Below are positions 35,854-52,880 of a stretch of DNA of 64,000 nucleotides, piece after piece. A model generated the notes under the pieces. It was given only the letters and a program-made list of their open reading frames with translations. It was not told the DNA's origin and did no database searches. The position numbers and the translations under genes were made by a program. Numbering within the stretch: the stretch's first letter is position 1; each line of letters opens with the position of its first letter. The DNA comes from Hyphomicrobiaceae bacterium (GTDB lineage: Bacteria > Pseudomonadota > Alphaproteobacteria > Rhizobiales > Hyphomicrobiaceae): positions 1 through 64,000 of the forward strand of contig JAURWC010000009.1 of the NCBI GenBank assembly GCA_030655135.1, given 5' to 3'.

Positions 35854-36705
35854 CTAACGCAATTGGCTATCACCCTGGGCAGAGGACCCGGCCGCACTGA
35901 TCTCCGTGACGAACTTTTGCCGGAGTGCGCGGCCGAAGTCGTTGTAGCCTTGTGCCGTCATCAAGAATGTGCCGGGACCGCCTATGACATGGTCCTTGAA
36001 CCAGGCATCCAACGTTGTGACCTCCTGATCCGGCCTTTGTGGCAACTCCCTCAGACCGTAGCCTGGTGCCCGGTACGCGCCAGATCCGACAACATCATTT
36101 TCGCCGGGCACGATGATGGGCAGGCCATTGATTGTCGCTCCCAAGGCCAGGACGCGATCGCGTTCGGCATGGAGACCATCGATATCCGTGCAATTGTCGA
36201 CACCATCTCCCGACACATCCACGACCAACCGTTGTGCCTTGATGGGAATGGCCGGGATAACGCTGACCGAAATCGTTCGCAGCATGCGAGCCATGCAAGT
36301 GAATTCTCCACCTTCGTGCGGCAGGTTGCGCAGGAGCTTGGCGACAGCAGCGGCATCGGCCCCAGATGCGATGCGCTGCCAGCCTATGACCTGACGCGCA
36401 TTATCGGACCACGCTACCATCGAAAAGAGGATGCCCCCGTAGGGCCCGCTTGTCACGCTGGCAAGGACGCTCGGATCTTCCAGGGCCTGGGCGATGCCCT
36501 CCATCTGCAAACGGTATCGAGCTTCGTCAACGGACTGTGACACGTCGACGGCGACGATAAGCGCCGTGTCGACCATGTCGGCGGCCCCAGATGAGGGAGA
36601 ATCCGCCTCGGTCGTCAAGCTAGCCCCGGCCAATATGCCCGCCATGCCAACCACCCGAACAATTGTAAACCGTGTTCGGCATCGCACGAGCATTCCGCGC
36701 ACCAT
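35854..36705 (-). CDS. DUF1194 (VWA-like) exported protein
   Basis: 283 residues from ATG 36705; the open frame continues to 36756, but those bases hold the upstream gene's terminator hairpin, so a start there is unlikely. The N-terminal signal or anchor region is about residues 12-35. The von Willebrand-A-like fold begins VDTALIVAVDVSQSVDEARY, with the metal-site DxSxS, and continues RLVVDVSGDGVDNC. This is DUF1194, common in alphaproteobacteria and of unknown role. It stands immediately downstream of the PQQ dehydrogenase in the same direction. Confidence 0.85.
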   Translation of the reverse strand: MVRGMLVRCRTRFTIVRVVGMAGILAGASLTTEADSPSSGAADMVDTALIVAVDVSQSVDEARYRLQMEGIAQALEDPSVLASVTSGPYGGILFSMVAWSDNARQVIGWQRIASGADAAAVAKLLRNLPHEGGEFTCMARMLRTISVSVIPAIPIKAQRLVVDVSGDGVDNCTDIDGLHAERDRVLALGATINGLPIIVPGENDVVGSGAYRAPGYGLRELPQRPDQEVTTLDAWFKDHVIGGPGTFLMTAQGYNDFGRALRQKFVTEISAAGSSAQGDSQLR

Positions 36706-36716
36706 GAGTGGACGAT

Positions 36717-36750
36717 AAAAAAGAGGCCCGAGCATTTCACTGCTCGGGCC
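36717..36750 (-). terminator. Rho-independent terminator of the PQQ dehydrogenase gene
   Basis: GGCCCGAGCA/TGCTCGGGCC (36725-36734 with 36741-36750) form a perfect 10-bp stem with a 6-base loop. On the minus strand it is followed by CTCTTTTTTAT. It begins 18 bases after the dehydrogenase stop, so the downstream DUF1194 gene is probably not in the same main transcript. Confidence 0.9.
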
Positions 36751-36767
36751 AAACAATTCAAGACCTA

Positions 36768-38579
36768 TCAGCGGGATGCCGTGGTGGTCTTGATTAGTTT
36801 GAACGTCCAGGTCATGGCACCTTGATTGAAGTGGGCAACGGTCTTTGCCACTTCACCACCCCAGAGCGGCACGGCGCCGCCCCAGCCGGACACAACCGAA
36901 ACGTACTGCTCCCCATCCTGCTCCCAGGTGACCGGCGAGCCAACGATGCCCGAGCCGGTGTTGAACGCCCAAAGCTCCTTGCCTGTCTTGGCGTCAACCG
37001 CTTTTAGCGTTCCCTCCGGCGTGCCGTAGAAGACTAGTCCACCTGCAGTCGTCAGCACGCCGCCCCAGAGCGGCGCCTTGTTCTTGATGCTCCAAACGAC
37101 CTTGCCCGTCTTGGGATCGAAGGCTTTCAGGGCACCAATGTGATCGTCGAAGATGGGTTTGATCGTGAAACCGGCGCCGAGGTAAGCCGCACCTTTCTTG
37201 TACGTAATCGGCTCATTCCACAGGTCCATGCCCCATTCGTTGGACGGAATATAGAACAGCTTGGTGTCGGGACTGTAGGCCATCGGCATCCAGTTCTTGC
37301 CGCCGAGGAAGCTCGGGACAACAAAAACGGCTTCACCCTTCTTGCCGTCGCTTGATTTGGCAGGATCGCCAGCACGGAACTTGTCGTCGAAGATCGGCCG
37401 GCCGTCCTTGTCGATGCCCTTGGCCCAGTTGATCTTCTCGACGAAAGGAGCCGCCGAGATGAACTTGCCGTTCTCGCGATCAAGCACATAGAAGAAGCCG
37501 TTGCGATCTGCTGTAGCGGCGACCTTCTTGCCGTCCATTTCGAACGATACGACTTCGTTGGTGCCGTCATAGTCCCAGCCATCATGTGGAGTCGTCTGAT
37601 AGCCCCACTTGATTTCGCCGGTTTCCGGGTCGATGGCGATGCGTGCGCAGCCCCACTTGTTGTCGCCGGGCCGGGTATGGCTATTCCATGGACCGGGATT
37701 GCCGACGCCCATGAAAATTGTCTTCGTATCAGGATCGTACGTCCCGCCAAGCCACGGCGCGCCGCCACCCGTCTTCCACATGTCGCCAGGCCAGCTCTCG
37801 TTGACCTTGCCGGTCATCGTCGATTCTTTACCGTTCAATGTGCCAACGTTGCCTTCAATCGTTGGGCGGGTCCAAACGAGGTCGCCATTGTCGACTTTGC
37901 GTGCTTCGACGCGCCCGACAATCCCGAACTCGCTGCCCGACACACCGGTTACAATCAACGGTCCATGCGCCTTTGATGGGACGATCAGAGGCGCTGCCGT
38001 TGCGGTGTGGCCGGCGGTCGGATCGTCAATCTCTTTCGACCAGACAACTTTGCCTGTCTTCTTGTCGAGAGCGACGACCTTGGCGTCCAGGGTCATGAAG
38101 TAAACTTTGTCACCGAACAGCGCGGCACCGCGGTTAATGACGTCGCAACATGTCAGAAGCCCCTCCGGCAGCCGCGCAGCGTATTCCCAAAGCTTCGCGC
38201 CGGTCTTCACGTCGATCGCGAACATGCGGCTGTACGAGCCGGTGACGTACATGACGCCGTCATCGACGAGCGGTTGCGTTTCCTGCCCGCGCATCTTTTC
38301 GCCGCCGAACGAGAACGCCCAGGCCGGAACCAGGCGAGAGACGTTCTCGCTTGTGATTTCCTTCAACGGGCTGAAGCGCTGAGCATGCCACCCGAGACCA
38401 TTCATCAGAACGTTATCAGTGCTGTTAGCATCCTTGGCGAGATCGTCGATCGTGACGTCGCCCGCCATGGCGCTTTGGGTAGTCAAGACGGAGATCGCGA
38501 GAGCACTGGCTCCGAGCATCGCTCTCCAACATCTTGCGGAACGGCTTTCCGGTCTACGGATTGCATCCACGCTCGGCAT
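36768..38579 (-). CDS. PQQ-dependent alcohol dehydrogenase, lanthanide type (XoxF/ExaF-like)
   Basis: 603 residues from ATG 38579, chosen because GGGAGG lies seven bases upstream; an in-frame ATG at 38609 lacks this. A signal peptide ends near QSAMAGD. The eight-bladed propeller shows the vicinal disulfide CC at 144-145 ([11 protein letters not shown]). Metal and catalytic residues by alignment from memory are E217 (SGSEFG), N294 (GNPGPWN) and D336. D338, two residues after the catalytic Asp ([11 protein letters not shown]), is the extra ligand typical of lanthanide-dependent enzymes; calcium enzymes have Ala or Ser there. No mxaI or mxaG is adjacent. Substrate probably short alcohols. A sigma-54 promoter precedes it (38643-38657). 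Confidence 0.92.
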
Positions 38580-38642
38580 GCGTTGTCCTCCCTGATTTGG
38601 CTTGCGCACGAGTTGAAGTGCAGCGCGCAGGGAATTATTCCC

Positions 38643-38657
38643 GCAACGTCCGTGCCA
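38643..38657 (-). promoter_or_regulatory. Sigma-54 (-24/-12) promoter of the PQQ alcohol dehydrogenase
   Basis: On the minus strand the bases read TGGCACGGACGTTGC followed by G: the consensus TGGCACG-N4-TTGC exactly. Transcription should start about 12 bases beyond the GC, near 38631, leaving a leader of about 50 bases before ATG 38579. The arrangement is identical to the promoter at 41290-41304. Confidence 0.88.
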
Positions 38658-38712
38658 CTCACGCCGCCTTTGAAAAGGCTCACTTATCGATCTGTCGGAC
38701 GACGCCTTTGTT

Positions 38713-38745
38713 CACATTTCGAGCAGCGCTCTTGGTCGAAATGTG
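38713..38745. promoter_or_regulatory. Inverted repeat upstream of the sigma-54 promoter, candidate enhancer site
   Basis: CACATTTCGA (38713-38722) and TCGAAATGTG (38736-38745) are perfect 10-base inverted arms with a 13-base spacer. The centre lies about 97 bases upstream of the predicted start of transcription, a normal distance for a sigma-54 activator. The protein bound is probably the regulator encoded at 38817, by position only. Confidence 0.6.
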
Positions 38746-38816
38746 GATGCAGGCAACGGGTGCGTTGCAAAAAGTCCAATGGAGATTGGGAAATTTCGGC
38801 AAGGCTTGCGCTGGAC

Positions 38817-40802
38817 CTAGACGTCTGAGGAATCGAGCGCGCGATAGACAGTGTTGCGACAGACCCCGAGCCGGCGAGCCGTCTCGCTGATATTTCCGCC
38901 AGTTTCTTTATAGACGCTGAGTAGCTGGCCGCGTTGCAACTCGCGCAGCGAGTGCGGCCCAGAGGTTACCGCAGACGCCGCCGGGACAAGGAAACTGCCT
39001 ATCACGGTATCATCGATAACGTTCGCGCTGTCGGCGGCAGCCAGACTCAAGCGGGCAAGCATACCGCGCAGTTCACGGATGTTGCCGTTCCAGGGTTGCG
39101 CCGCCAGCGCGGCCAACGCCCGTTCGGTTATTTTGGTTGCTGAGCTGATGCGCTCCAAAAGGTGCCGCGCGATCTCGGCGAAATCCGCGCGTTCCGAAAG
39201 CGATGGCAACGTGACGTGCATCGTGTTCAACCGGTAGAGAAGATCCGGACGAAACTTGCGGCTGGTGACCGCTTGCCCAAGATCTACATTGGTTGCGGAA
39301 ACAAGCAGCACATCAACTTTGCGCGGCTGCCCGCCAACCGGTCGCACAGTGAAATCGTCCAAAAATCGCAACAGCACTGACTGCAGCGTGAACGGCATGT
39401 CCCCGATTTCATCCAGGAACAGCGTTCCTCCGTCGGCTTCCCTCGCAAGACCTTGGGCTCCCCCACGCCGTGCACCGGTGAAGGACCCATCCGCATAGCC
39501 GAATAGCTCGGCTTCGACGAGCGTCTCGGGCAAGGCAGAGCAATTGACCGGCACAAATGCGCCTTTGCGGCCGCTGCTCGTATGCGCATAACGCGCCAGC
39601 ATCTCCTTGCCGGTCCCCGTCTGCCCGCAAATCAAAACAGGCATGTGCAACCGCGCTGCTGAGGCGACGTTCTTGCAAACCTGCTTTACTTTGGCATCGG
39701 CCGCGACGAATGGCACCGCAACAGACGCATCTGCTAGCGAAACGACGGCCGCCGATCCCGCGCGAACGGGGCTTGTGACGTTAGAGCGACGGTTCTCGAG
39801 GGGTATGGATACGCCTGCTTCCGAAAAACCATGTGGCGCTTCATCCCGCGCAATCCGCGGCCGCTTGCTGACGGGCTGAGGAGGAGATCGGTACGACGTC
39901 GGAAACACGATGATGGCGCCTAGCTCGTCTTCGCCCTCCTGCACCAGCACCGTGCGCATGTTGATCACCCGCCTGCCGAGGTCGTCGGGCCATTGATTGA
40001 ACGGCAGGGAACGCAAAAACGAAAGATCGTCTGTCTCCGATTGGGAGAGGTGCTTCGCAAATTTTCGTAAGGCGTTGGGAGAAGCTTGAACAATACCGCC
40101 CCGGCGATCGATTGCCAGGAGGTCGTGGCTGGCCCATTTGCGTTGCTTTTCCTGGAAGCAAGTCATCAGACGGTCATGCTGCTGTTTGATCGTCTGCGAA
40201 ATCAAACCCTCCATATGACCCGCAATCGAAACAGCCAGGGCAAGGCTTTGCGAACTGAATGTCTTTGGCGGGCCGGAGATATCGATGACGCCAAGCAATT
40301 CATGATCGATCGGGTGAAAGATCGGCGCGGCCGCGCACGTCCATTGCTGAACGCGTTCGCAGAAATGTTCGGCAGCGTGAATTTGGACCGGCAGCTTTGC
40401 TGCCAGCGCCGTGCCGATCGCGTTGGTGCCGATCTTGTCCTCAGTCCAGCAGCCGCCATCCTGCAGATGGACTTCGCGACCCTCCTCGATCGTCCGGCGG
40501 TCACCCAGGGTTTCGATGATGTGCCCCGACCCATCGGTCAGAATAAGCATCGAGGACGCATCGCCCAAGATGTGCGCTGCGCGTTCCATTGCCTGACGTG
40601 CGGAAGCAGAAAGCAAGGCACTGTCGGCACGTCGCCTGTATAGCTCTGCCTCCGACAGCACGGGAGCAGCTTTACGGGAAACATCGATGTTGAAATTCTT
40701 GCTGCGTTGCCAGGAACCAGCAACGGCGGATCGAACCGCCTTCGGTTCATCACCGTCGTCCACAAAGCGCACCCAGGCAGCCCGAATGTCGCGTTCGTTC
40801 AT
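38817..40802 (-). CDS. Sigma-54-dependent activator, AcoR/MimR type
   Basis: 661 residues. A GAF sensor is about 60-220 (EDKIGTNAIGTALAAKLPVQ, then CAAAPIFHP), with a PAS-like stretch about 225-300. The AAA+ domain is about 360-590 with Walker A GQTGTGKE (393-400) and Walker B GGTLFLDEIGD (459-467). The sigma-54-contact loop reads GSFTGA (439-444) where most family members have GAFTGA. The Fis-type helix-turn-helix is at the end (GNISETARRLGVCRNTVYRA). It lies between the two sigma-54 promoters in this region and matches the MimR/AcoR activators that switch on propane-type monooxygenase operons. Confidence 0.92.
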   Translation of the reverse strand: MNERDIRAAWVRFVDDGDEPKAVRSAVAGSWQRSKNFNIDVSRKAAPVLSEAELYRRRADSALLSASARQAMERAAHILGDASSMLILTDGSGHIIETLGDRRTIEEGREVHLQDGGCWTEDKIGTNAIGTALAAKLPVQIHAAEHFCERVQQWTCAAAPIFHPIDHELLGVIDISGPPKTFSSQSLALAVSIAGHMEGLISQTIKQQHDRLMTCFQEKQRKWASHDLLAIDRRGGIVQASPNALRKFAKHLSQSETDDLSFLRSLPFNQWPDDLGRRVINMRTVLVQEGEDELGAIIVFPTSYRSPPQPVSKRPRIARDEAPHGFSEAGVSIPLENRRSNVTSPVRAGSAAVVSLADASVAVPFVAADAKVKQVCKNVASAARLHMPVLICGQTGTGKEMLARYAHTSSGRKGAFVPVNCSALPETLVEAELFGYADGSFTGARRGGAQGLAREADGGTLFLDEIGDMPFTLQSVLLRFLDDFTVRPVGGQPRKVDVLLVSATNVDLGQAVTSRKFRPDLLYRLNTMHVTLPSLSERADFAEIARHLLERISSATKITERALAALAAQPWNGNIRELRGMLARLSLAAADSANVIDDTVIGSFLVPAASAVTSGPHSLRELQRGQLLSVYKETGGNISETARRLGVCRNTVYRALDSSDV

Positions 40803-41363
40803 CAGTCGTCCCTACCCCGAACAAACGTTCCTGTGCGGAGTGTATAGACGTTTCCTGTTACGCATTCAATATCTCTGAGATTATCGCGAGCGTTTCAACG
40901 CGCTATTCAATACACGTCACAAAACTTTTTATCGCGCCGTCTCGCAGTCAAGAGATCTGTTTGTGCAACATTAGGCGCGCGGAAAATTCTATTGAGCATG
41001 ACCAGCGTCGTCGGCGTCTCCCTGCGGGTTTTATCTCCAGTTTGTGCGGTGCATCGTTCGCGTGACGGATACGTTCGCTGCAAAAAATCCCCAGTTGTCA
41101 GCGGCTCGCGCCACAAACTTGCTGACAAAACATTTCAATAAAGCGGCCTTTTGGGTTTCTGGCAGCATCAAAGTGCAATGCATCATTGTTGACAAATGCA
41201 ACACTTGTTGTCGAACGCGATAGCACAGCGAACAGGGTACGCATTCAGCTGTACGTCCATTTCATCGATATGTCCGCGAGTTAACGAACTGGCACGCCTG
41301 TTGCGATGACCATCTCAACCGATCCGACAAAGGACCGGACTAGGGGATGGAAAGGTCACACGC
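40803..41363. promoter_or_regulatory. Control region of the monooxygenase operon
   Basis: 561 bases with no gene, more AT-rich than its surroundings. It holds a sigma-54 promoter at 41290-41304 and an inverted repeat TTGTCAGC (41095-41102) with GCTGACAA (41121-41128), about 200 bases upstream of the expected transcription start. A repeated TTGTTGAC/TTGTTGTC pair is at 41186-41193 and 41205-41212. The last two are candidate activator sites. The region must also contain the regulator gene's own promoter. Confidence 0.7.
41290..41304 (+). promoter_or_regulatory. Sigma-54 (-24/-12) promoter of the monooxygenase operon
   Basis: TGGCACGCCTGTTGC followed by G matches TGGCACG-N4-TTGC at every fixed position. 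The predicted start of transcription is about 41316, 48 bases before the alcohol dehydrogenase ATG (41364). Confidence 0.9.
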
Positions 41364-42407
41364 ATGAAGGCGGCGGTACTGCATCGCTATGACGAAAAGC
41401 TCTCGGGTCCGGAGTTCGTCACTTACCAGGATATCGAGGATCCCAAGATCCAAACGCCGACCGATGTCATCGTGCGCATTGGTGGCGCCGGCGTCTGTCG
41501 TACTGATCTCCATATCGTCGAGGGCATCTGGCGCGAAAAGTCCAACGTCGCCTTGCCCTACATCATGGGTCACGAGAACGCTGGTTGGGTCGAAGCCGTC
41601 GGCTCCGGCGTCGAAGGCGTAAAAATCGGCGACCCAATTATCTGCCACCCGCTCGTGACGAGTGGACACTGCCTCGCCTGTCGCCGCGGCAACGACATGC
41701 ATGCCGACGGCAGCAGCTTTCCGGGCATCAATGCCAACGGCGGCTACGCGCAGTACCTAAAAACAACGCAACGGTCTTTGATCAAGCTGCCGAAGACGTT
41801 GGCGCCGAAGGATGTCGCGCCATACACCGATGCAGGATTGACGGCATACCGCGCTGCGAAGAAGGCCTCGCGCCACCTGTTGCCAGGGCAGTTCGCCGTC
41901 GTCATCGGCTGTGGCGGGCTCGGCCACATCGGCATTCAGGTGTTGAAGGCGCTGTGTGCGGCGACTGTTATCGCTGTCGACCGGTCGCTGGGCTCGTTGG
42001 ACTTGGCGCGTGCCTGCGGCGCCGACCTTGTTGTGAAGGCCGACGGCAATGAGGTGGAATCCATCAAGGAGTTGACGGGCGGCCACGGCGCGGAAGCCGT
42101 CATCGACTTCGTCGGCGAAGGCGATGCGGTTGCCAACGGCATCGCCGCAACCCGTAACGATGGCTTCTATTACATCGTCGGCTACGGCGGCAAAGTCGAA
42201 ATACCGACGCTGGATATGATCGCCTCCGAAAAGACGATCGTCGGCAATCTCGTCGGCACCTACGCCGAACTCGTCGAGCTGATGGCGCTTGCCGACAGCG
42301 GCCGCGTCAACCTCAAGACAAAGGAATACCGGCTGAGCAAGGCCAATCAGGCTCTGCTCGACCTGCATCACGGCAAGGTACACGGCCGCGCGGTGCTCAT
42401 TCCGTGA
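41364..42407 (+). CDS. Zinc-type NAD(P)-dependent alcohol dehydrogenase
   Basis: 347 residues, medium-chain dehydrogenase/reductase. Catalytic zinc set: C45 (GVCRTDLH) and H70-E71 (IMGHENAGW). The NAD site is VVIGCGGLGHIGIQ, about 175-188, with an Asp at the end of the next strand (AVDRS) favouring NAD. The structural zinc loop is degenerate: C103 and C106 remain, while the third and fourth cysteines are missing. As first gene after the sigma-54 promoter it should oxidise the alcohol formed by the monooxygenase, as the alcohol dehydrogenase genes of Prm/Mim clusters do. Overlaps the next gene by four bases (GTGA). Confidence 0.92.
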   Translation: MKAAVLHRYDEKLSGPEFVTYQDIEDPKIQTPTDVIVRIGGAGVCRTDLHIVEGIWREKSNVALPYIMGHENAGWVEAVGSGVEGVKIGDPIICHPLVTSGHCLACRRGNDMHADGSSFPGINANGGYAQYLKTTQRSLIKLPKTLAPKDVAPYTDAGLTAYRAAKKASRHLLPGQFAVVIGCGGLGHIGIQVLKALCAATVIAVDRSLGSLDLARACGADLVVKADGNEVESIKELTGGHGAEAVIDFVGEGDAVANGIAATRNDGFYYIVGYGGKVEIPTLDMIASEKTIVGNLVGTYAELVELMALADSGRVNLKTKEYRLSKANQALLDLHHGKVHGRAVLIP

Positions 42408-42814
42408 TCGCGCAGCAAGACAATCACCGCAATGGGCGCGACATGTTCGATGCGCGGGATCTTTGGTCGAAACTGGCAAGGAGTAGTGTCGTGGGCACGC
42501 CCGAAGGCAGAGACCACATGCTGAAACGCCACGACATCGTGGTGCGGATCATTGAAGCGAACTCCCGCCGCCTGCGGCTCGACAATGAAATCAACGGCCT
42601 CGATATCGAACGCCGCATCGTGGAGCGCGATCAGAAGGACGCGTCCGCCGATCCGGGCATCAGCGGACGCCTCGTGGCGATCGAAGCCAAGCTCGCCGAA
42701 CTTCGCGAAGAGAGCAGCAAGCTCGACGCAACGCGCGCATGGCTCGAAGAATCGCTGGCCGAATTCGACGGCGGGTCACCGGCCGGCAGCGGCACGGCGG
42801 CGGGCAGGGCATAG
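42404..42814 (+). CDS. Coiled-coil protein of the monooxygenase operon, unknown function
   Basis: 136 residues from GTG 42404, which overlaps the dehydrogenase stop; ATG 42443 is the alternative. It is charged and helical, with heptad-like stretches VRIIEANSRRLRLDNEING and KLAELREESSKLDATRAWLE, and no cysteine or signal. I do not recognise a family. Its place between the dehydrogenase and the hydroxylase genes suggests an assembly or regulatory part of the system. Confidence 0.65.
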   Translation: MIAQQDNHRNGRDMFDARDLWSKLARSSVVGTPEGRDHMLKRHDIVVRIIEANSRRLRLDNEINGLDIERRIVERDQKDASADPGISGRLVAIEAKLAELREESSKLDATRAWLEESLAEFDGGSPAGSGTAAGRA

Positions 42815-43068: not shown

Positions 43069-44763
43069 ATGTCATCGGGCTTAACGCTCAACAAGATCAC
43101 CGCCCAGAAGGGCATCAGCATCGCCGAGGCGACATCGCGCGTAGCCGACCTCGGCTGGACGCCGACATACGTCCAGGAAGCCGAGACGTTTCCGACAGAC
43201 TATAAGATCTCGAAGGTCCCGCGCGATCCCATGAAGCAGGTGCTTCGCTCCTACTTCCCCATGCAGGAGGAAAAGGACAATCGCGTCTATGGCGCGCTTG
43301 ATGCCGCACTGCGCGGCGACATGTTCCGCAACGTCGAACCCCGCTGGGTCGAGTGGATGAAGCTGTTCCTCGCCATCATCCCGTTCCCGGAGATCTCCGC
43401 GGCGCGTGCGATGGCCATGGTCGCCCGTTTGGCGCCCGGCGAAGAACTGCGCACCGGCTTCACGATGCAGATGGTCGACGAGTTCCGTCACTCCACGATT
43501 CAGATGAACCTGAAGAAGTGGTACATGGAGAACTACATCGATCCGGCCGGCTTCGACATCACGGAAAAAGCCTTCGGCAAGTGCTACGCGTCGACCATCG
43601 GCCGCCAGTTCGGCGAAGGCTTCATTTGCGGTGATGCCATCACCTCGGCCAACGTTTACCTGACCGTCGTCGCCGAAACGGCCTTCACGAATACGCTGTT
43701 CGTCGCCATGCCGTCGGAGGCCGCCCGTAACGGCGACTACGCGCTGCCGACCGTCTTCCTATCCGTGCAGTCGGATGAATCGCGTCACGTCGGCAACGGT
43801 CACTCGATGCTGATGGCGATGATCAACGACCCGTCGAACCATCTGCTGCTCGAGCGCGATCTCAAGTACGCCTTCTGGCAGAACCACACCATCGTTGACG
43901 CTGCGATCGGCACGTTCATCGAGTATGGCACCACGAACCGCGACAAGAACAAGGAATCCTACGTCGAGCTTTGGCATCGTTGGATCTACGAAGACTATTA
44001 TCGCACCTACATGCTGCCGATCGAGAAGTACGGCATCAAGATTCATCACGACGATGTTGCCGCCGCCTGGGATCGCCTGGTCAAGAAGAACTACGTGCAC
44101 AAGATCGCCCAGTTCTTCGCCGTCGGCTGGCCTGTCAACTTCTGGCGCATCGAAGCTCAGACCGAAAAAGACTTCGAGTGGTTCGAGCACAAGTATCCGG
44201 GCTGGTACGCTGAGTTCGGCGACTTCTGGAAGTGGTATGGCCGCAAGAGCGTGCCGGGCGAGACGAACATGCTGTTCGATCAGGAGAACGGCTACGTCTA
44301 TCCGCATCGCTGCTGGAGCTGCATGTGCCCCTGCGTCATCCGGGAAGACTTCTGTGTGGGCGAAGTTGACGGCAAGCTCTACACGTACTGCTCCGAGCAG
44401 TGCAAATGGACGCACACCGTCGCCTTCCAGGCGGAGTACGAGGGACGTCCGACACCGGCCATGGGCCGCTTCAAGGGTCAGCGCATCTGGGAAGATTGCT
44501 ACCACGGCTGGGACCTGGCCGATGCAATCAAGGATCTCGGCTTCCTTCGCCCGGACGGCAAGACGATCACGGCGCAGCCGCATCTGCGCTTTGACCAGAA
44601 GGACATGTGGACCCTCGATCATGTCAAGGGTCACACGATCCAGAGCCCACTCGTGTTGATCCGCGATATGAGCCCGGCCGACCGCGACAAGCATGTCGCC
44701 GAGTACCGCGCCGGTTTCAAGATCAAGCCCTGCAACTGCGGCAATGGTCACCACAAGCACTGA
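43069..44763 (+). CDS. mimA: Propane/acetone/phenol-type di-iron monooxygenase, large subunit
   Basis: 564 residues; AGGAGG stands before ATG 43069. The di-iron ligands of the bacterial multicomponent monooxygenases are all present: E108 (PFPEIS), E138 and H141 (DEFRH), E203 with T207 (ETAFT), E237 and H240 (DESRH). Every one is offset by six from E114, E144, H147, E209, T213, E243 and H246 of soluble methane monooxygenase. A YHS-like Cys-rich segment (RCWSCMCPC, YCSEQC) and a Cys/His tail (CNCGNGHHKH) follow. The order large subunit, reductase, small subunit, coupling protein identifies the Prm/Mim branch, not methane or toluene enzymes. Confidence 0.96.
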   Translation: MSSGLTLNKITAQKGISIAEATSRVADLGWTPTYVQEAETFPTDYKISKVPRDPMKQVLRSYFPMQEEKDNRVYGALDAALRGDMFRNVEPRWVEWMKLFLAIIPFPEISAARAMAMVARLAPGEELRTGFTMQMVDEFRHSTIQMNLKKWYMENYIDPAGFDITEKAFGKCYASTIGRQFGEGFICGDAITSANVYLTVVAETAFTNTLFVAMPSEAARNGDYALPTVFLSVQSDESRHVGNGHSMLMAMINDPSNHLLLERDLKYAFWQNHTIVDAAIGTFIEYGTTNRDKNKESYVELWHRWIYEDYYRTYMLPIEKYGIKIHHDDVAAAWDRLVKKNYVHKIAQFFAVGWPVNFWRIEAQTEKDFEWFEHKYPGWYAEFGDFWKWYGRKSVPGETNMLFDQENGYVYPHRCWSCMCPCVIREDFCVGEVDGKLYTYCSEQCKWTHTVAFQAEYEGRPTPAMGRFKGQRIWEDCYHGWDLADAIKDLGFLRPDGKTITAQPHLRFDQKDMWTLDHVKGHTIQSPLVLIRDMSPADRDKHVAEYRAGFKIKPCNCGNGHHKH

Positions 44764-44845: not shown

Positions 44846-45880
44846 ATGACAACACACAAAGTTACCCTTGAGCCTGTCGGCATCGAGATGAACGTGGAAG
44901 AGGGCGAGACCGTTCTCGACGCCGCCTTCCGGCAGGGCATCGCGCTGATGCACGGCTGCAAGGAAGGCCAGTGCTCGAGCTGCAAATCGAAGCTGATCGA
45001 CGGCGACATCGACCTTCTGAAGTATTCGACGTTCGCTCTTCCCGATCACGAGCGCGACGAGAACTACATCCTGCTGTGCCGGACGCACGCCTTCAGCGAT
45101 CTCACTGTCGAACTCACGAACTTTGACGAGGAACTGCTCAGCCGGTCGATCCCCGTCAAGGACTTCAAGGGCAAGGTCGCGGGCGTCAAGGATCTGACGC
45201 ACGATATCCGGCTGCTGGAGATCGACCTCGACGAGCCGATCAAGTTTTGGGCCGGCCAGTACGTCGACATCAGCATCCCGAGCAAAGGTGTGACGCGCCC
45301 CTATTCGATGGCCAATCCCCCGAGCGAAGGCCAAAAGCTACAGTTCATCATCAAGAAATATCCCGACGGCGAATTCTCGGCGCTCCTGGACGGCGAGTTG
45401 AAGCCGGGCACAGAGATCACGGCGAAAGGCCCCTACGGCGGCTGTTTCCGTCGCGAAGGACGGCCTGGCCCCATCGTCCTGATCGGTGGCGGATCTGGCA
45501 TGTCGCCGCTTTGGTCGATCCTGCACGATCACATCCAGAGCGGCGAGCAGCGCCCCATCCGCTTCTTCTACGGCGCCCGGACCGAGAAGGATCTGTTCTA
45601 CCTCGACGAGTTCGCCGGCATCACCAGCAAGCTCTCCGACTTCAAGTTCATCCCTGCCCTCTCCGACAACAACGGCGGCTCCTGGAACGGCGACACCGGG
45701 TTCGTGCACGACGTTGTGCAGCGGCGCCTGCGCGAAGAGCAACTGACAGGGCCGATCGATGCGTACTCCTGCGGGCCACCGCCCATGATCGACGCCGTCA
45801 TGCCGGTGCTGTTCGGCATCGGCGTCGAGCCGGACCATTTCTACTACGACAAGTTCACTCAGCCGATGAAGAAAGACTGA
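44846..45880 (+). CDS. mimB: Monooxygenase reductase component (2Fe-2S, FAD, NADH)
   Basis: 344 residues from ATG 44846. Plant-type [2Fe-2S] ferredoxin domain with C38, C43, C46 and C78 (GCKEGQCSSCKSKL, LLCRT). The FAD domain has RPYSMANPP and the NAD domain GGGSGMSPLWSIL, YGARTEKDLFY and SCGPPPM. It passes electrons from NADH to the di-iron centre of the hydroxylase. The open frame continues upstream into the mimA end, but the ATG after the gap is the natural start. It follows mimA by 82 bases. Confidence 0.95.
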   Translation: MTTHKVTLEPVGIEMNVEEGETVLDAAFRQGIALMHGCKEGQCSSCKSKLIDGDIDLLKYSTFALPDHERDENYILLCRTHAFSDLTVELTNFDEELLSRSIPVKDFKGKVAGVKDLTHDIRLLEIDLDEPIKFWAGQYVDISIPSKGVTRPYSMANPPSEGQKLQFIIKKYPDGEFSALLDGELKPGTEITAKGPYGGCFRREGRPGPIVLIGGGSGMSPLWSILHDHIQSGEQRPIRFFYGARTEKDLFYLDEFAGITSKLSDFKFIPALSDNNGGSWNGDTGFVHDVVQRRLREEQLTGPIDAYSCGPPPMIDAVMPVLFGIGVEPDHFYYDKFTQPMKKD

Positions 45881-45936
45881 CGGCCCCGAGGCAACAACAC
45901 GCGGCAGCAAATGCTGTGGATCAAGTGGAGGACGAC

Positions 45937-47013
45937 ATGGAAGGCACTGCAACGCCAATCAAATCGGGAGCCGCGGGGGCCGCGACGTTTCCTGGCTCCG
46001 ACAGCCGGAAGTTCAACTACTACGACCCCAAGGGACGCAAATCCACGCACTACGAAGACATGACCCTCGACGTACAGCCCGATCCCGATCGCTATCTGCT
46101 TCAGGATTGGATCATCAACTTTCCCGACGGCACGCCCACCTACTCGAAAGATTGGACGCGCTGCAAGTCGGTGGACTGGCACAAATATCGCGCAGTCGAC
46201 CAGGAATGGGAGAAGACGCACTACCAGCGCCAGTCCACCATCTGCGGCACCGTACAGTCGGTAATCGAGAACGGCCGCCGCTCTGGCGCAGCAGCCCGCT
46301 TTGACAAGTCGTGGGTCAAGGTCCTGCAGGACCACCTGGGTGCCTACAAGCACGCCGAATTTGGCCTTGGCACGTCGCTGATGCAGGCGCAGCGCTACGG
46401 CTTCACGCAAATGATCAACAACGCGATCCTCACCAACTCGTCTTACAAGCTGCGCTTTGGACAGGATCTCACTTTGTACCTGGGAGAGATCGGGCTCGAT
46501 ATCGAGGGCGGCATCGACAAGGACGCCGGCAAGAAGCATTGGATGGAAGATCCAATCTGGCAGGGCACACGCCGCGCCATCGAAGAGATCATGGCCAGCT
46601 CCGACTACCTGGAGCAGTACATCGCCATCAACGTCGTGTTCGAGCCTCTGGTCGGTGAATTGTTCCGCTCCGGCTTCGTTCTGCAGATGGCCGCAGCACA
46701 TAACGACTTCATCACGCCCAGCGTCGTCTCGGCCGCCGAAGGCGACTATGAACGCAACCTGGCGAACTGCGTCGAGCTCGTTCACAACCTGCTCAATGAC
46801 CAGGACTATTCGCTGCACAACAAGGTGATCATCGGCGAGTGGGTGGAAAAACACGCCAAGCTCGCCCACGCGGCAGCGGCGCAGCTGCAGCCGATCTGGT
46901 CGCTGCCGCGCGTCAAGGTGGCGAGCTTCCCTGAAAGCTTCGATTTGGCGCGCAACCGCTTCAACAACGTACTCCAGCAGTGCGGTCTGCCTGTGCCTGC
47001 CGTCACGGCCTGA
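45937..47013 (+). CDS. mimC: Propane/acetone/phenol-type monooxygenase, small subunit
   Basis: 358 residues from ATG 45937 with GTGGAGGA upstream. It has the beta-subunit fold of the di-iron hydroxylases without iron ligands: SRKFNYYDPKGRKSTHYED near the N-terminus, then PTYSKDWTRCKSVDWHKYR, HYQRQSTICGTVQ, and the helical core QAQRYGFTQMINNAIL. It forms the (alpha-beta)2 scaffold with MimA. The open frame extends far upstream in mimB and is a shadow there. Confidence 0.94.
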   Translation: MEGTATPIKSGAAGAATFPGSDSRKFNYYDPKGRKSTHYEDMTLDVQPDPDRYLLQDWIINFPDGTPTYSKDWTRCKSVDWHKYRAVDQEWEKTHYQRQSTICGTVQSVIENGRRSGAAARFDKSWVKVLQDHLGAYKHAEFGLGTSLMQAQRYGFTQMINNAILTNSSYKLRFGQDLTLYLGEIGLDIEGGIDKDAGKKHWMEDPIWQGTRRAIEEIMASSDYLEQYIAINVVFEPLVGELFRSGFVLQMAAAHNDFITPSVVSAAEGDYERNLANCVELVHNLLNDQDYSLHNKVIIGEWVEKHAKLAHAAAAQLQPIWSLPRVKVASFPESFDLARNRFNNVLQQCGLPVPAVTA

Positions 47014-47063
47014 TGTGCGGGATTCGATAGTGCGGAATGAACATCGAGATAGGACGGCAGAAC

Positions 47064-47417
47064 ATGAGTGACCATAGCGCAAATATTTTTCAGTCGATGG
47101 ACAAGCTGAAATTCGATGGGACGATCTCGCATCAGTGCGGCGTGACGATGAACGACAGCGTGGAGGCGCGGGCGATCGCCGAGGTGATGGCGGATAAGCC
47201 AAACATCACCGTCACCTACATGCCGGCGATGATCCGCATCGACGGCCAAGGCAAGATCGAATTCAACATGAGCGAGATCAGCGAAGCTCTTGGCCGCACC
47301 ATGACAACGAACATCTTTGAAATCTCCACATCCACGCACTACGGCCGGATGGTGATGATCGACGAGGACAATGTCGTGCTGTTCGGCAACATGGAAGACG
47401 CGATGAAATACATTTAG
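47064..47417 (+). CDS. mimD: Monooxygenase coupling (effector) protein
   Basis: 117 residues from ATG 47064 with AGGACGG upstream; ATG 47037 would add nine residues and lacks a ribosome site. MmoB/DmpM-type regulatory protein: CGVTMNDSVEARAIAEVMAD, then NITVTYMPAMIRIDGQGKIE and a C-terminal STHYGRMVMIDEDNVVLFG. It binds the hydroxylase, shapes substrate entry and couples electron transfer to oxygen activation. No cofactor is expected. Confidence 0.94.
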   Translation: MSDHSANIFQSMDKLKFDGTISHQCGVTMNDSVEARAIAEVMADKPNITVTYMPAMIRIDGQGKIEFNMSEISEALGRTMTTNIFEISTSTHYGRMVMIDEDNVVLFGNMEDAMKYI

Positions 47418-47494: not shown

Positions 47495-48535
47495 ATGTAT
47501 GTGACGAAAAAAGGCGAAGAGATCTTCGTCATCGACGGGCACACCCACTTTTGGGATGGCAGTCCGGCCAACCAGCGGAACGTTCACGGCAAACAGTTCA
47601 TCGACTGCTTCTTCAACTACCACACGGGCCTCAGCCCCAAGGAAGAGCTGTGGCCCAAGGAGAAGTTCGAGAAGTACAGCGCCGAAGACATGCACGACGA
47701 CCTCTTCGTCAAGGGGTACGTGGACATGGCGATCCTGCAGCCGACGTATCTGAAGGAATTCTACGTCAACGGCTTCAACACCACGGAGCAGAACCACAAG
47801 ATGGCCGAGGCTTACCCCGGCCGCTACATCTGCAATGGATCCTTCGATCCGCGCGAAGGCGCCAAGGGCATCGAATACCTGCACAAACTGAAAGAGCAGT
47901 ACGACATCAAAGGCGTGAAGCTCTATACCGCCGAGTGGCGCGGTGACTCCAGGGGCTACAAGCTGACGGACACTTCGTGCCAGGAATACCTTCGCTGGTG
48001 CGAAAAGCTAGGCATCAAGAATGTCCACGTCCACAAGGGTCCGACGATCCTTCCGCTGAATCGCGATGCTTTCGATGTCGCCGACATCGATGACGTGGCG
48101 ACGTCGTTCCAAAATCTCAACTTTATCGTCGAGCACTGCGGGCTTCCGCGCCTGGACGATTTCTGCTGGATCGCCACGCAGGAAACCAACGTCTATGCGG
48201 GGCTGGCCGTTGCGATACCCTTCATTCACAGCCGTCCGGCCTACTTCGCGCACATCATCTCCGAACTGCTGTTCTGGGTCGGCGAAGACAAGATCCTGTT
48301 CGGCAGCGACTACGGCATTTGGACGCCGAAGTGGATCATCGACAAGTTCATGGCTTTCGAAATGCCGAAGGACGTCGCCGCGGAGACCGGCACGTCGCTG
48401 ACGCTTGAGAGCAAAAGGAAGATTCTGGGGCTCAATGCGGCGCGCCTCTACGACATCGATGTCGCGGCGCAAAAACAGAAGCTGGCGCCGGCGCCTCGGC
48501 AGAAGGTCGCAGCGGGCGGAGGTTGGTTCAGATGA
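47495..48535 (+). CDS. Amidohydrolase-family protein of the monooxygenase operon
   Basis: 346 residues. ACMSD-like amidohydrolase barrel with IDGHTHFWDG (H16 and H18), a mid-chain His (NVHVHKGP), VEHCGLPRLDD and FGSDYGIWTP, a full mononuclear metal site. A homologue sits at the same place in many Mim/Prm clusters, so it belongs to the system. A catalytic step has not been shown; roles in hydroxylase maturation or in a later catabolic step are both possible. It overlaps the next gene by ATGA. Confidence 0.9.
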   Translation: MYVTKKGEEIFVIDGHTHFWDGSPANQRNVHGKQFIDCFFNYHTGLSPKEELWPKEKFEKYSAEDMHDDLFVKGYVDMAILQPTYLKEFYVNGFNTTEQNHKMAEAYPGRYICNGSFDPREGAKGIEYLHKLKEQYDIKGVKLYTAEWRGDSRGYKLTDTSCQEYLRWCEKLGIKNVHVHKGPTILPLNRDAFDVADIDDVATSFQNLNFIVEHCGLPRLDDFCWIATQETNVYAGLAVAIPFIHSRPAYFAHIISELLFWVGEDKILFGSDYGIWTPKWIIDKFMAFEMPKDVAAETGTSLTLESKRKILGLNAARLYDIDVAAQKQKLAPAPRQKVAAGGGWFR

Positions 48536-49293
48536 ATGCCGTAAGTCCCTGCGAGATCCCAATGGAACAGTTGCGCGAAGACGTGTGGCTGCGGTTGAGC
48601 CGCGTAACGGACCCGGAACTCGATGAAGCCGTCACCGACATGGGCTTCATCGAATCCTACGAGATCAGGGACGGCGGCCACGTCCACGTCGCGTTTCGGC
48701 TGCCGACCTATTGGTGCTCGCCCAACTTCGCTTTCATGATGGGACACGACATGCGCGTCTCGGTCATGGCGTTGCCGTGGGTGAAGCACGTAGATGTTGT
48801 GCTCGGCGAGCACATGTACGTCGACCAGATCAATCGCGGCGTAAACGGCGGGCTGAGCTTCCAGGAAACGTTCGGCGACGCCTCCAACGGAGAACTCGAG
48901 GAGATTCGTCAGACATTTCTCCGCAAGGCGTTCCAGTGGCGGCAAGAGGCGTTGATCACGGACCTCCTGCACCGGGGAGCGAAAGCCGGCGCGCTGGTCG
49001 ACTGGACGATTGACCGCCTGCGCGAGGCCTCCGAAACCGAAGCGTCCCGGCATCTCATCACGCGCTATCTTGAACGGCGCAATGTTCCAGGTGCGTTTGC
49101 CGGTGGTGATTGCGCGCTTGTCTCGCTCGACGGCACACGCCTAGACGCTTCAAGCATGACCGATTACCTGCGCGCCATTCGGCGGATACGCACCAACGCC
49201 GAATTCAACGGGGCGCTGTGCCGGCGCCTGCTCGACGAACGCTTCGCCACCGAACCTCTAAACATCTGCCAATCCGGGCGCGCGACGCCCTAA
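48532..49293 (+). CDS. DUF59/MIP18-type protein, hydroxylase assembly candidate
   Basis: 253 residues from ATG 48532, overlapping the amidohydrolase stop. The N-terminal 100 residues are a MIP18 (DUF59) domain: LRLSRVTDPELDEAVTDMGF, RLPTYWCSPNFAFMMGHDMR, the last with one of the few cysteines of the protein. A longer helical C-terminal part (110-253) is specific to monooxygenase-linked versions. MIP18-type proteins help load iron-sulfur or iron centres, so loading of the di-iron site is a reasonable but unproven role. Confidence 0.85.
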   Translation: MNAVSPCEIPMEQLREDVWLRLSRVTDPELDEAVTDMGFIESYEIRDGGHVHVAFRLPTYWCSPNFAFMMGHDMRVSVMALPWVKHVDVVLGEHMYVDQINRGVNGGLSFQETFGDASNGELEEIRQTFLRKAFQWRQEALITDLLHRGAKAGALVDWTIDRLREASETEASRHLITRYLERRNVPGAFAGGDCALVSLDGTRLDASSMTDYLRAIRRIRTNAEFNGALCRRLLDERFATEPLNICQSGRATP

Positions 49294-49319: not shown

Positions 49320-50981
49320 ATGCCCAAGATGATGCTCCACGACGACGACGCCCGGGACGCGCTGGCCCGCGGTGTCCACAAGCTTGCCCGTGCCGTGGCA
49401 GGTACGCTCGGCCCGCGCGGCATGAATGCCGTGATGGACCGCCCCGTCGGCACGCCGATCATATCGCGCGATGGCGTGACCATCGCCGCGGAGATCGAAC
49501 TGGAGTGCCCGTTCGAGAACATGGGTGCCCAGATCGTTCGCGAGGTTTCCAAGCAAACCAACGACGTCGCGGGTGACGGCACCACGACTGCTACCGTTCT
49601 TGCCGACGCCCTCGTGCAGGGCGGCATCAAGGCTGTCGCCGCTGGCGCCAACGCTGTCGAGCTTGTCCAGGGCATGGAGTTGGCGGCCCATGAGGTCGTT
49701 GCTGGGCTGAAGGCCCTTGCCGAACCTGTAACGACCGCATCGACCGTACGGGCCGTCGCGACGATTGCGGCCAACGACGAGGCACTCGGGAGCATTGTCA
49801 GCGAGGCCTTCGAGAAAGCCGGCACGCACGGAATTGTCGACGTCCAGTACGGCATCGGCATGCACGCGGAATTGGAATTCATCGAGGGCATGACATTCGA
49901 TCGCGGATACCTGTCCCATCATATGGCGACGGATCCCGAGTCGATGGAGGCTGAACTGGATGATCCTCTCGTCTTGATTACCGATCACAAGGTCCAGACA
50001 CCTGCCGAGCTTACGGCTGTCTATGCCCTAGCGCAAAAAGCAAAGCGCCCTTTGCTGGTGATTGCGGAAGAGATTTCACCCGCATGCGTGATGGATATGC
50101 TGAAGACGCGGGAGAAGACCGGCCTGCCGATCGTGGCCGTGAACCCGCCTGAATACGGGCATTGGCGCAAGGCCATGCTTGAGGACATTGCCATCGTCAC
50201 CGGCGGCCGGGTGATCTCGCGAGACCTCGGTGGAAAGATCGAGACGTGCGAGGCCGCCGATCTCGGCGGCGCCAAGAAGGCAATGATCTCGGCCGCTCGG
50301 ACGGCCATTGCCGGCGGCGCGGGAAATGCGGAGACGATCGCGTCGCGTCGTGAGCAGGTTAAACGCCAGCACGAAGCTGCGCCGGAGAACGTAGAGCGCG
50401 ATAAATTCAAGGACCGCTTGGCCAAATTGTCCGGCGGAACGGCGATCATTTTCGCTGGCGGTGCCACGCCGGTTGAATTGAGGCGTAAGGCGCAACTGAT
50501 CGACGATGCTGTCTGCGCCGCGCGTGCCGCCCTTGAAGAAGGTGTCGTCCCGGGCGGTGGCACGGCCCTGTTGCGCGTTGCCGCCGGCGTGGAGAAGCTG
50601 GCGAACACGGTAAAGGGAGACGTTCGCAAGGGTATCGATCTAGTGCGAGAGTGCCTGCAAAAGCCCCTCGAACGGATTGCGCAGAACGGAGGCTTCGACG
50701 GCGCGGAGAAAGTTCGGCTGGTGATGGCGGCTGGCGGGACATCCGGTTTCGATGCCCGCTCTGGCGAAATCGTCGACCTCGTGAAAGTGGGAATCGTCGA
50801 CCCTGCGAAGGTGGTTCACAGCGCGATGCGCAACGCCGCTTCAGTCGCCGGTCTCATATTGACGACGCACACGCTCGTCGCCAAGCGGCCGGATGACTAC
50901 GACCCGACGAAGGAACCGGCACGGGGCGGCGGCGCCGAACTTCTGGGAAGAACACCTCCACAGATCAAGCTGGTCAACTGA
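49320..50981 (+). CDS. groL: GroEL-type chaperonin dedicated to the monooxygenase
   Basis: 553 residues from ATG 49320 (AAGGAAA upstream); the longer frame runs back into the previous gene. It has the 60-kDa chaperonin fold with ATP loop GDGTTTATVL, the equatorial start GTLGPRGMNAVMD, and GVVPGGGTALLR near the C-terminus. The end, GRTPPQIKLVN, lacks the usual GGM repeat tail. There is no groES beside it. The known parallel is MimG, required for folding the hydroxylase large subunit in mycobacteria; that job is inferred here from operon position. Confidence 0.94.
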   Translation: MPKMMLHDDDARDALARGVHKLARAVAGTLGPRGMNAVMDRPVGTPIISRDGVTIAAEIELECPFENMGAQIVREVSKQTNDVAGDGTTTATVLADALVQGGIKAVAAGANAVELVQGMELAAHEVVAGLKALAEPVTTASTVRAVATIAANDEALGSIVSEAFEKAGTHGIVDVQYGIGMHAELEFIEGMTFDRGYLSHHMATDPESMEAELDDPLVLITDHKVQTPAELTAVYALAQKAKRPLLVIAEEISPACVMDMLKTREKTGLPIVAVNPPEYGHWRKAMLEDIAIVTGGRVISRDLGGKIETCEAADLGGAKKAMISAARTAIAGGAGNAETIASRREQVKRQHEAAPENVERDKFKDRLAKLSGGTAIIFAGGATPVELRRKAQLIDDAVCAARAALEEGVVPGGGTALLRVAAGVEKLANTVKGDVRKGIDLVRECLQKPLERIAQNGGFDGAEKVRLVMAAGGTSGFDARSGEIVDLVKVGIVDPAKVVHSAMRNAASVAGLILTTHTLVAKRPDDYDPTKEPARGGGAELLGRTPPQIKLVN

Positions 50982-51022: not shown

Positions 51023-51736
51023 ATGAATCGCTACCTGGCAGAATTTCTCGGCACGGCAACTCTGGTGTTTGTTGGATGCGCAGCAATTACGCTGGGCGGA
51101 CTTGGGGCGGCGTTGTCCGCCCCGCAGGAGGTGTCGGCCCTGGCGTTGCTGCCGATCGCGGCCGCGTTCGGACTTACGGTGGCGGCACTTGCCTATGGCA
51201 TAGGGCCGATCTCCGGCTGCCATATCAATCCAGCGGTCTCAATTGGCGCATGGGCTGCAGGTCGATTGCCGGGCGCGGATTTGCCTGGCTACATCATCGC
51301 CCAGGTTCTTGGCGGTATCGCTGGTGCAGCGTTGCTCTTGTTTGTCTTGTCCGGAAAGGTCGGCGGTTATGATCTCGCTGCCTCGGGGTTGGGTGAGACC
51401 CGGTGGTCAGGCCTTGCGGTAACGCAAGCTTTCGTCGTCGAGTTCATCGCAACGTTCCTGTTTGTCGTCGTCATCCTAGGGGCCACGTCGCGATCCGGAA
51501 CAACACCGGCCGCCGGTCTCGCTATCGGGCTCGCGTTGCTGGTGATGCATCTTGCCTTCATCCGCGCCACAGGCGCCTCGCTCAATCCGGCCCGGTCTCT
51601 GGGCCCGGCGCTTCTCGTCGGGGGCGGCGCGCTGTCTGATGTTTGGCTCTACATCGTGGCGCCACCGCTCGGCGCATTGTTCGCGGGGCTGTTGTTCAAA
51701 AGTGCACTTTTGGAATCGCGGCAGTCCAGCACCTGA
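51023..51736 (+). CDS. Aquaporin-family channel (MIP)
   Basis: 237 residues, six helices with two NPA boxes: SGCHINPAVSIG and GASLNPARSLGP. The selectivity filter can be read against AqpZ: His in LLVMHLAF and Arg in NPARS are kept, while the Thr before the second box is Ala. It follows groL by 41 bases in the same direction, so it may be part of the operon and move water or a small hydroxylated product. A water channel by default. Confidence 0.92.
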   Translation: MNRYLAEFLGTATLVFVGCAAITLGGLGAALSAPQEVSALALLPIAAAFGLTVAALAYGIGPISGCHINPAVSIGAWAAGRLPGADLPGYIIAQVLGGIAGAALLLFVLSGKVGGYDLAASGLGETRWSGLAVTQAFVVEFIATFLFVVVILGATSRSGTTPAAGLAIGLALLVMHLAFIRATGASLNPARSLGPALLVGGGALSDVWLYIVAPPLGALFAGLLFKSALLESRQSST

Positions 51737-51766
51737 AATTGGAAGTGGTCTTGCTGAAGCGCTCTT

Positions 51767-52852: not shown

Positions 52853-52880
52853 TTGAACGTAACTTTTGGGAGGGGCGTCT

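Follow-up and report, generated by a model that had tools for sequence, protein, structure and literature searches.

Can one sigma-54 activator switch on both a soluble diiron monooxygenase and a pyrroloquinoline quinone (PQQ)-dependent alcohol dehydrogenase? The question is raised by a 64,000-nucleotide stretch of DNA from a Hyphomicrobiaceae bacterium (contig JAURWC010000009.1, positions 1 to 64,000; this whole stretch is called the window below), in which an activator gene lies between a quinoprotein operon on the minus strand and a mim-like monooxygenase operon on the plus strand. We put a probability of roughly 0.77 on the reading that the locus encodes a two-armed sigma-54 regulon, in which an AcoR/MimR-type activator would drive the mim and the quinoprotein operons in a C3-type pathway, so that the PQQ alcohol dehydrogenase and the monooxygenase, an enzyme for small carbon compounds, are probably switched on together. 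A first-pass annotation had proposed a single regulon governed by the activator that lies between the two operons. This proposal is well supported at the sequence level, because a candidate operator lies at fixed distances from both promoters and is kept in all four loci with this arrangement, because no other activator of such a type is found among the four clear ones of the genome, and because genes for partners of the quinoprotein end the monooxygenase run.

Results

Sigma-54 promoters before both operons

The first-pass annotation had pointed to two TGGCACG-N4-TTGCG sites, one per strand, before the PQQ dehydrogenase and before the dehydrogenase/monooxygenase operon; we confirmed both, and they recur in three related genomes. 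The sigma-54 promoter of the quinoprotein operon, TGGCACGGACGTTGCG, occupies 38642..38657 on the minus strand, and that of the monooxygenase operon, TGGCACGCCTGTTGCG, occupies 41290..41305 on the plus strand, each with counterparts in the loci L001, L002 and L099. The corresponding 15-mers TGGCACG-N4-TTGC, at 38657-38643 (-) and 41290-41304 (+), have no further exact copy in the window. Their placement is the strong point: two elements 2.6 kb apart, on opposite strands, each directed toward the first gene of an operon. On the mim side, 59 bases separate the -12 C (41304) from the ATG (41364), and on the quinoprotein side 63 bases separate the -12 C (38643) from the ATG at 38579, which was set as the start (GGGAGGA stands before it) rather than the GTG at 38609 further upstream. 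Both promoters have the -24 GG and the -12 GC in the spacing of TGGCAYR-N4-TTGC, and both end in G instead of A/T; the TTGCG end is common to the quinoprotein-side elements of the window, L001, L002 and L099. The genome has a single rpoN gene (PF04552, one match, 235.8 bits).

The letters of the -24/-12 elements by themselves are weak evidence, at most twofold over control. The genome-wide scan (4.06 Mb) that the first-pass annotation had suggested showed that the motif is not rare, with four exact TGGCACG-N4-TTGC matches against two for the reversed pattern, and eight against five for the looser TGGCAYR-N4-TTGC; with up to two mismatches allowed, the motif is not enriched in the window either (42 against 32.6 expected; 11 of 100 shuffles reach 42). 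On these numbers the quinoprotein-side element could be a chance match and its operon could be driven by another promoter, and one exact 15-mer is indeed misplaced, at C94:69473, inside and antisense to a frame resembling a terminal oxidase subunit. We regard such a coincidence as very improbable, given that -24/-12 elements precede both operons in 4/4 loci with the arrangement (window, L001, L002, L099) and that the quinoprotein-side element keeps a similar distance to its gene amid diverged flanks (59% mean column identity), with an operator at fixed spacing.

We also compared the best 80 of 534 mim loci, all from named genomes and many of them interrupted by contig ends. A sigma-54 site scoring at least 10 lies before the alcohol dehydrogenase (ADH) gene or mimA in 76/80, so the mim-side element is ordinary for mim operons; many of the 80 carry a different type of upstream repeat. 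The earlier argument that the same -24/-12 element on both sides implies the same activator thus fails and was rejected, since the element is read by RpoN, is indifferent to the activator and is common in mim loci. Because a -24/-12 element in common cannot prove a common activator, an upstream activator site was sought.

The activator between the promoters

The activator gene (38817..40802, minus strand) is the only convincing gene between the two sigma-54 sites, in agreement with the first-pass annotation, which had named a sigma-54 activator as the sole regulator there. Its product has the AcoR/MimR-type architecture, namely a GAF domain (PF01590), an AAA+ sigma-54 domain (PF00158, 187.6 bits) with a GAFTGA-type loop reading GSFTGA, and a Fis-type helix-turn-helix (PF02954), and a family search detected no receiver domain in it. 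MimR was reportedly first described by Furuya in 2011. Four clear sigma-54 activators are encoded in the genome; five further PF00158 matches (21-28 bits) cover short parts of longer frames. Besides the window's activator, the clear ones comprise NtrC (701.9 bits, cut-off 558.6), NtrX (768.2 bits, cut-off 600) and a receiver-domain regulator on contig C41, and the window activator's recognition helix, NISETARRLGVCRNTVYRAL, is found in none of them.

In a quick tree of collected activator entries, which gave long-branch warnings and left out characterised AcoR and MimR, the activators of the window, L099, L001, L002, L100 and L101 form one group with support 100, and this group of six clusters, again with support 100, with activators divergent from mim ADH genes (60/104 rows). 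An order-wide activator search, in which few candidates were scored per genome, returned 2/397 genomes and was not used for prevalence.

Some further features of activators in mim loci were seen on the side. Mim loci of Bradyrhizobium and Rhodopseudomonas frequently carry a pair of activators, one ahead of the ADH gene (~40% identity to the window's) and one after GroEL (~50%), as in L035 (18122-20134 and 5897 onwards) and, similarly, in many of L027-L060. In Bradyrhizobium erythrophlei GAS478 (L004 6021-7919 and 3704-5605), the activator pair is near-identical C-terminally while the sensor parts differ, a pattern that gene conversion or a domain swap could produce. For the upstream activators of L064, L070, L077 and L080, the best match to the window's activator is limited to the C-terminal 290 residues.

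A candidate operator at two fixed distances

The candidate operator is a 17-bp TGTT-N9-AACA palindrome, mostly with an extra C/G pair. On the mim side, a distal upstream activating sequence, TGTTGACAAATGCAACA (41187..41203, plus strand), lies 86 bp before the -24 T, and its counterparts in L001, L002 and L099 lie at 86, 87 and 86 bp, each with 8/8 arm bases. On the quinoprotein side, a proximal one, TGCTCGAAATGTGAACA (38709..38725, minus strand), lies 51 bp before the -24 T with 7/8 arm bases, and the counterparts in L001, L002 and L099 lie at 53, 53 and 52 bp with 8, 8 and 7 of 8. Among the 256 possible four-base palindrome arms, TGTT ranks first both at 84-88 bp on the mim side (32/32; runner-up 24) and at 50-54 bp on the quinoprotein side (30/32; runner-up TGCT, 26). 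Each promoter seems to have a weak, degenerate copy at the other position as well. The one on the quinoprotein side, CGTTGCCTGCATCCACA (38742..38758, minus strand), is 84 bp before -24, and the one on the mim side, CGATAGCACAGCGAACA (41218..41234, plus strand), is 55 bp before -24, both with 6/8 arm bases; across the four loci TGTT scores 24/32 at 83-88 bp on the quinoprotein side (rank 2/256; median 14) and 22/32 at 50-56 bp on the mim side (rank 1; median 15).

With 2000 shuffles for each promoter over 200 bp, the mim-side score was equalled at frequencies of 0.013, 0.013, 0.010 and 0.002 in the window, L001, L002 and L099, respectively, and the quinoprotein-side score at 0.061, 0.0035, 0.0005 and 0.0835. 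Dinucleotide shuffles with the position fixed at 50-54 bp matched the quinoprotein-side score in 7, 0, 1 and 14 per 6000, in the same order. A 10-bp inverted repeat at ~38713-38748 was considered as an operator or terminator and dropped: inspected by eye, it lacks a T-run and is not matched in any of the three relatives.

Since the motif was first spotted by eye in the four loci, weight is given to a wider promoter set. This set drew on the 80 loci, 68 of which have an ADH match (the 12 without one were left out), and kept 67 promoters, 34 with a divergent activator and 33 others; L099, which lacks the ADH gene, and L029 and L049, which lack a sigma-54 site scoring at least 9, were left out. 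In the 34 promoters with a divergent activator, which contain three of the four core loci and many close kin (Bradyrhizobium, Rhodopseudomonas), 38/41 matches of at least 7/8 fall inside the 84-88 or 50-54 bp bands, in 31/34 loci. In the remaining 33, only 6/18 such matches do so, in 5 loci; these 33 include three loci whose activators are divergent by position but were missed by the filter (L058, L074, L080) and two with activator fragments at contig ends (L005, L044). Where a promoter has two or more operator matches (n=13), the pair is spaced by 32-34 bp in 10. A third sigma-54 site in L099 (16802-16817), the locus of the closest relative, stands before glyoxalase-GMC genes and also has a 7/8 operator at 53 bp, and TGYT-N9-ARCA is missing from the six other sigma-54-like sites of the window's own genome, scanned up to 1.5 kb on either side. 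From these sequence comparisons, a shared operator at fixed distances is well supported as the link between both promoters and one activator.

Several observations weigh against this reading. The activator loop (residue 439) reads GSFTGA, as opposed to GAFTGA in its nearest relatives, the serine form being found in 8 of 113 collected activator entries (one of the eight is a double count, L082/L106, and the 113 contain two G000 proteins twice). The window's quinoprotein-side operator has one arm mismatch, and position-free shuffles equal its score in 6%. The four loci with the arrangement are relatives and hence not wholly independent. In L080 and L058 the operators are spaced 33 bp apart, yet lie beyond the two bands. 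In L100 the operator is 176 bp away (7/8), again beyond the bands, in L101 the operator score is at most 6/8 within 200 bp, and the stretches scanned ahead of the glyoxalase-GMC genes in these two loci (L100 partly masked) showed no sigma-54 site scoring at least 10. Nor was one seen, in the stretches scanned, before the glyoxalase-type gene adjoining the second activator in four Rhodopseudomonas loci. The operator rule was also tried on 10 more loci from plasmid records (28 records found, 15 listed). Nine of the 10 lack a divergent activator beside the promoter, several have another repeat type, and L131, the sole plasmid locus with a divergent activator, lacks the operator and differs in its recognition helix; the plasmid loci provide no independent confirmation of the rule.

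The activator might instead control mim alone, with the sigma-54 promoter of the quinoprotein obeying NtrC, NtrX, the C41 response regulator or a LuxR-type regulator. The genome does encode NtrC, NtrX and the C41 regulator besides the window's activator, the operator on the quinoprotein side of the window is imperfect (7/8), and sigma-54 plus LuxR-type control of a PQQ alcohol dehydrogenase has been described for exaA of Azospirillum, as cited in PMC6115532. We consider such divided control unlikely. Among the sigma-54 activators compared, the recognition helices of the other three are unlike the window's, and the quinoprotein-side operator sits at 51-53 bp in 4/4 loci. In addition, in two genomes of the family with no mim match (L100, G069; L101, G066), an activator of the same clade lies directly before another PQQ dehydrogenase with a sigma-54 site.

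Genes of the two operons

The names quinoprotein and dehydrogenase/monooxygenase operon used by the first-pass annotation hold up by family and Protein Data Bank (PDB) matches. The quinoprotein gene (36768..38579, minus strand) encodes a PedH-like PQQ-dependent alcohol dehydrogenase of the PQQ methanol/ethanol dehydrogenase family (TIGR03075, 760.6 bits, cut-off 480). Its best PDB matches are 6zcv and 6zcw, listed as quinoprotein ethanol dehydrogenase, which we take to be PedH of Pseudomonas putida. The protein has the adjacent Cys-Cys, and its GWDYDG aligns with GWDFDG of 6zcw and AWDFSG of 1flg, which places an extra Asp two residues past the metal Asp (D-Y-D in the window and 6dam, D-F-D in 6zcw, D-F-S in 1flg). 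Such an extra Asp (D-x-D) marks lanthanide-type quinoproteins, and we infer that the enzyme is of a predicted lanthanide type, PedH-like. A PqqE gene is present in the genome, above the cut-off. The second gene of the operon (35854..36756, minus strand) follows after 11 bp and encodes a DUF1194 protein (PF06707, 165 bits), found at the same position in L001, L002 and L099.

On the other arm, the run opens on the plus strand with a zinc-type alcohol dehydrogenase gene (41364..42407; PF08240, PF00107) and a 136-aa open frame (42404..42814) that has no Pfam or NCBIfam match and has relatives in L001, L002 and L099 at 54, 49 and 58%. The complete MimABCD gene set follows: a mimA-like hydroxylase large subunit (43069..44763; PF02332), with methane monooxygenase alpha chains as best PDB matches, a mimB-like reductase (44846..45880; Fer2, FAD_binding_6, NAD_binding_1), a mimC-like hydroxylase small subunit (45919..47013; PF02332) and a mimD-like coupling protein (47037..47417; PF02406). 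The last does not pass the NCBIfam MimD model (NF045941, 117.9 bits, cut-off 150), and we therefore call it mim-like rather than a MimD equivalog. Next come an amidohydrolase-2 family protein of mim operons (47495..48535; PF04909), a FeS-assembly-P (DUF59-like) protein (48535..49293; PF01883), a GroEL-type chaperonin (49320..50981; PF00118, 217 bits) and an aquaporin-family channel (51023..51736; PF00230).

The end of the run ties the two arms together. Here, a PedA2-like beta-propeller protein of PQQ-dependent catabolism (51812..52852, plus strand; TIGR03866, 486.7 bits, cut-off 287.3) and a PedF-type cytochrome c-550 (52866..53312, plus strand; TIGR04494, 201.2 bits, cut-off 122) form a ped electron-transfer module at 51812-53312, apart from the dehydrogenase, and are followed by a PedG/XoxJ-like periplasmic solute-binding protein (53317..54174, plus strand; PF00497), which by its position after PedF is perhaps PedG-like. 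The PedF cytochrome of P. putida serves to reoxidise PedE and PedH, and its cluster also contains PedA2 and PedG (PMC12997753). Intergenic gaps in the run are at most 82 bp, bar 254 bp ahead of mimA; between 49100 and 54400, a scan gave no sigma-70-type promoter, where 0.9 would be expected, and five terminator-like sites, against 4.4 in shuffles. The mim run is likely one transcript, as judged from its spacing and signals, with the 254-bp gap and the genes at 51023-54174 as its least certain parts, and the partner genes of the quinoprotein seem to close it, which would interlock both operons.

Occurrence in relatives

The order quinoprotein-activator-mim is found in two of the best 80 named mim loci, both from Hyphomicrobium (L001, L002); in L052, a PQQ relative (39%) lies further upstream of mim. 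Within the family, mimA is found at 1e-150 in 5/103 genomes: the window's own, G048 (L001), G062 (L002), G052 (L099) and G097 (L055), the last with mim and no quinoprotein in its flank. In L099 the ADH, amidohydrolase, FeS-assembly and aquaporin genes were not found and the remaining genes are present. In the window, L001 and L099, the mim genes are followed by PedA2-, PedF- and PedG-like genes, and L002 stops short of these; no PedA2- or PedF-type relatives were found within the flanks of the other 78 named mim loci.

Two unrelated features emerged from these searches. Rhodobacterales plasmid mim loci (Paracoccus, Gemmobacter, Ponticoccus) have an annotated sigma-54 factor gene near mimA (L122 3831-5093, L123 2494-3780, L124 6180-7439), as if the plasmids carried their own sigma factor. 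The mim locus and activators of L009, labelled Mycobacterium sp. KBS0706, cluster with Inquilinus limosus, and the label is probably wrong.

The pathway served by the regulon

In L099 and L100, activators of the same clade adjoin genes for a glyoxalase-type protein (PF00903), a GMC oxidoreductase and a D-lactate dehydrogenase, and in L101 genes for GMC and D-lactate dehydrogenase; the L099 glyoxalase-type protein scores under the NCBIfam GloA cut-off (121.9 against 165), and the L099 D-lactate dehydrogenase is an edge fragment. GMC-VOC-cytochrome operons adjoin mim in three Azospirillum plasmids and in Bradyrhizobium CB82. When its GMC gene is deleted, Methylocella silvestris accumulates acetol and no longer grows on 2-propanol or acetone; in extracts of this species, the oxidation of propanol is PQQ-linked, not NAD-linked (PMC7364539). 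In Methylacidiphilum IT6, a cluster of GMC, glyoxalase I and lactate dehydrogenase accompanies acetone oxidation (PMC8630023). A search of the window's own genome, run without a positive control, gave no GMC match at 1e-15. On account of the GMC neighbours of the activator clade, the Methylocella and IT6 precedents and the lack of an own-genome GMC match, we somewhat favour, by analogy, the view that the quinoprotein fills the step held by a GMC acetol dehydrogenase in some relatives.

The co-regulation could also be right and the pathway not C3, in that the quinoprotein oxidises another alcohol (e.g. ethanol) and the monooxygenase another small substrate. Substrates are not readable from sequence, and phenol is also oxidised by Mim-type enzymes (PMC8394569). 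The glyoxalase-type, GMC and D-lactate dehydrogenase genes beside the activator clade and the GMC-VOC-cytochrome operons next to mim point to C3 compounds instead, and we take a different pathway to be a real possibility with odds of about one half those of its opposite. On the side that speaks against our reading, only 9/80 named mim loci have GMC in the flank, one of them as a partial edge match, and the idea of a replacement therefore rests on a minority of loci. Tentatively, and at somewhat less than even odds, a predicted lanthanide-type PedH-like quinoprotein may have replaced the GMC acetol/alcohol dehydrogenase of a sigma-54 C3 regulon in the Hyphomicrobium group, via gain of an operator at the second phase (~52 bp).

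Discussion

In the two-armed regulon that we propose, the N-terminal GAF region of the activator would detect a small ligand, and the activator would bind TGTT-N9-AACA operators, which would stand in two phases, ~86 and ~52 bp before -24 and about three helical turns apart. The main phase would differ between the operons, being distal for mim and proximal for the quinoprotein. Bound activator would remodel RpoN-polymerase at the mim (41290-41305) and quinoprotein (38642-38657) promoters. In the cytoplasm, the soluble diiron monooxygenase would then hydroxylate a small substrate. In the periplasm, the PedH-like quinoprotein would oxidise an alcohol of the shared pathway and hand electrons to the PedF-type cytochrome, whose gene lies close to the distal end of the mim run. 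Related systems suggest, by analogy, that this pathway would be of a C3 type (propanol/acetone/acetol).

Such a switch would unite a soluble diiron monooxygenase and a PedH-like quinoprotein, two oxidation systems usually handled separately. If true, one cytoplasmic ligand sensor induces a diiron enzyme that uses oxygen, a periplasmic enzyme that uses a rare earth, and the cytochrome that takes up the electrons of this periplasmic enzyme. The analysis also offers a concrete candidate operator for the mim activator family (TGTT-N9-AACA, ~86 and ~52 bp before -24), makes regulon membership directly testable and suggests a route for wiring a quinoprotein into a volatile-C3 pathway. In the literature searched, which leaves most subscription papers outside, we found no report of a sigma-54 activator that controls both a soluble diiron monooxygenase and a quinoprotein, and none of TGTT-N9-AACA as an operator for mim activators.

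The locus resembles several known systems in part. It is like the MimABCD/PrmABCD propane-acetone monooxygenase clusters with MimR of Mycobacterium (PMC8394569) in subunit order, GroEL and an adjoining regulator, a likeness of gene content and order, with a MimD model score under the NCBIfam cut-off in the window. Unlike in those clusters, as far as they are described in the available text, the window activator has a quinoprotein operon on its other side, and the monooxygenase run closes with PedA2/PedF/PedG-like genes. BmoR of Thauera butanivorans (PMC8784404, PMC6366067) is likewise an alcohol-responsive sigma-54 activator that induces an alkane monooxygenase, Pbmo, but in the available parts of these papers no quinoprotein gene is seen under BmoR; the likeness here is one of regulatory scheme. 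In Azospirillum brasilense, exaA (Singh 2017, as cited in PMC6115532) also encodes a PQQ alcohol dehydrogenase under sigma-54, but with a LuxR-type regulator rather than an AcoR-type activator, and no tie to a monooxygenase is seen in the available text. With the IT6 C3 cluster (PMC8630023) and Msil_1641 of Methylocella silvestris (PMC7364539), the comparison extends to monooxygenase, alcohol/acetol oxidation, glyoxalase and lactate dehydrogenase; in both, the acetol step is taken by a GMC oxidoreductase and not by a PedH-like quinoprotein, and the IT6 monooxygenase is of the copper type. Finally, the ped cluster of P. putida (PMC12997753) shares the PedH-type enzyme, the PedF cytochrome, the PedA2-type propeller and the PedG-like binding protein. 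That cluster, however, has regulators of its own (PedS2/PedR2 and others), whereas the window has the module in two parts, on either side of a sigma-54 activator, and linked with a monooxygenase.

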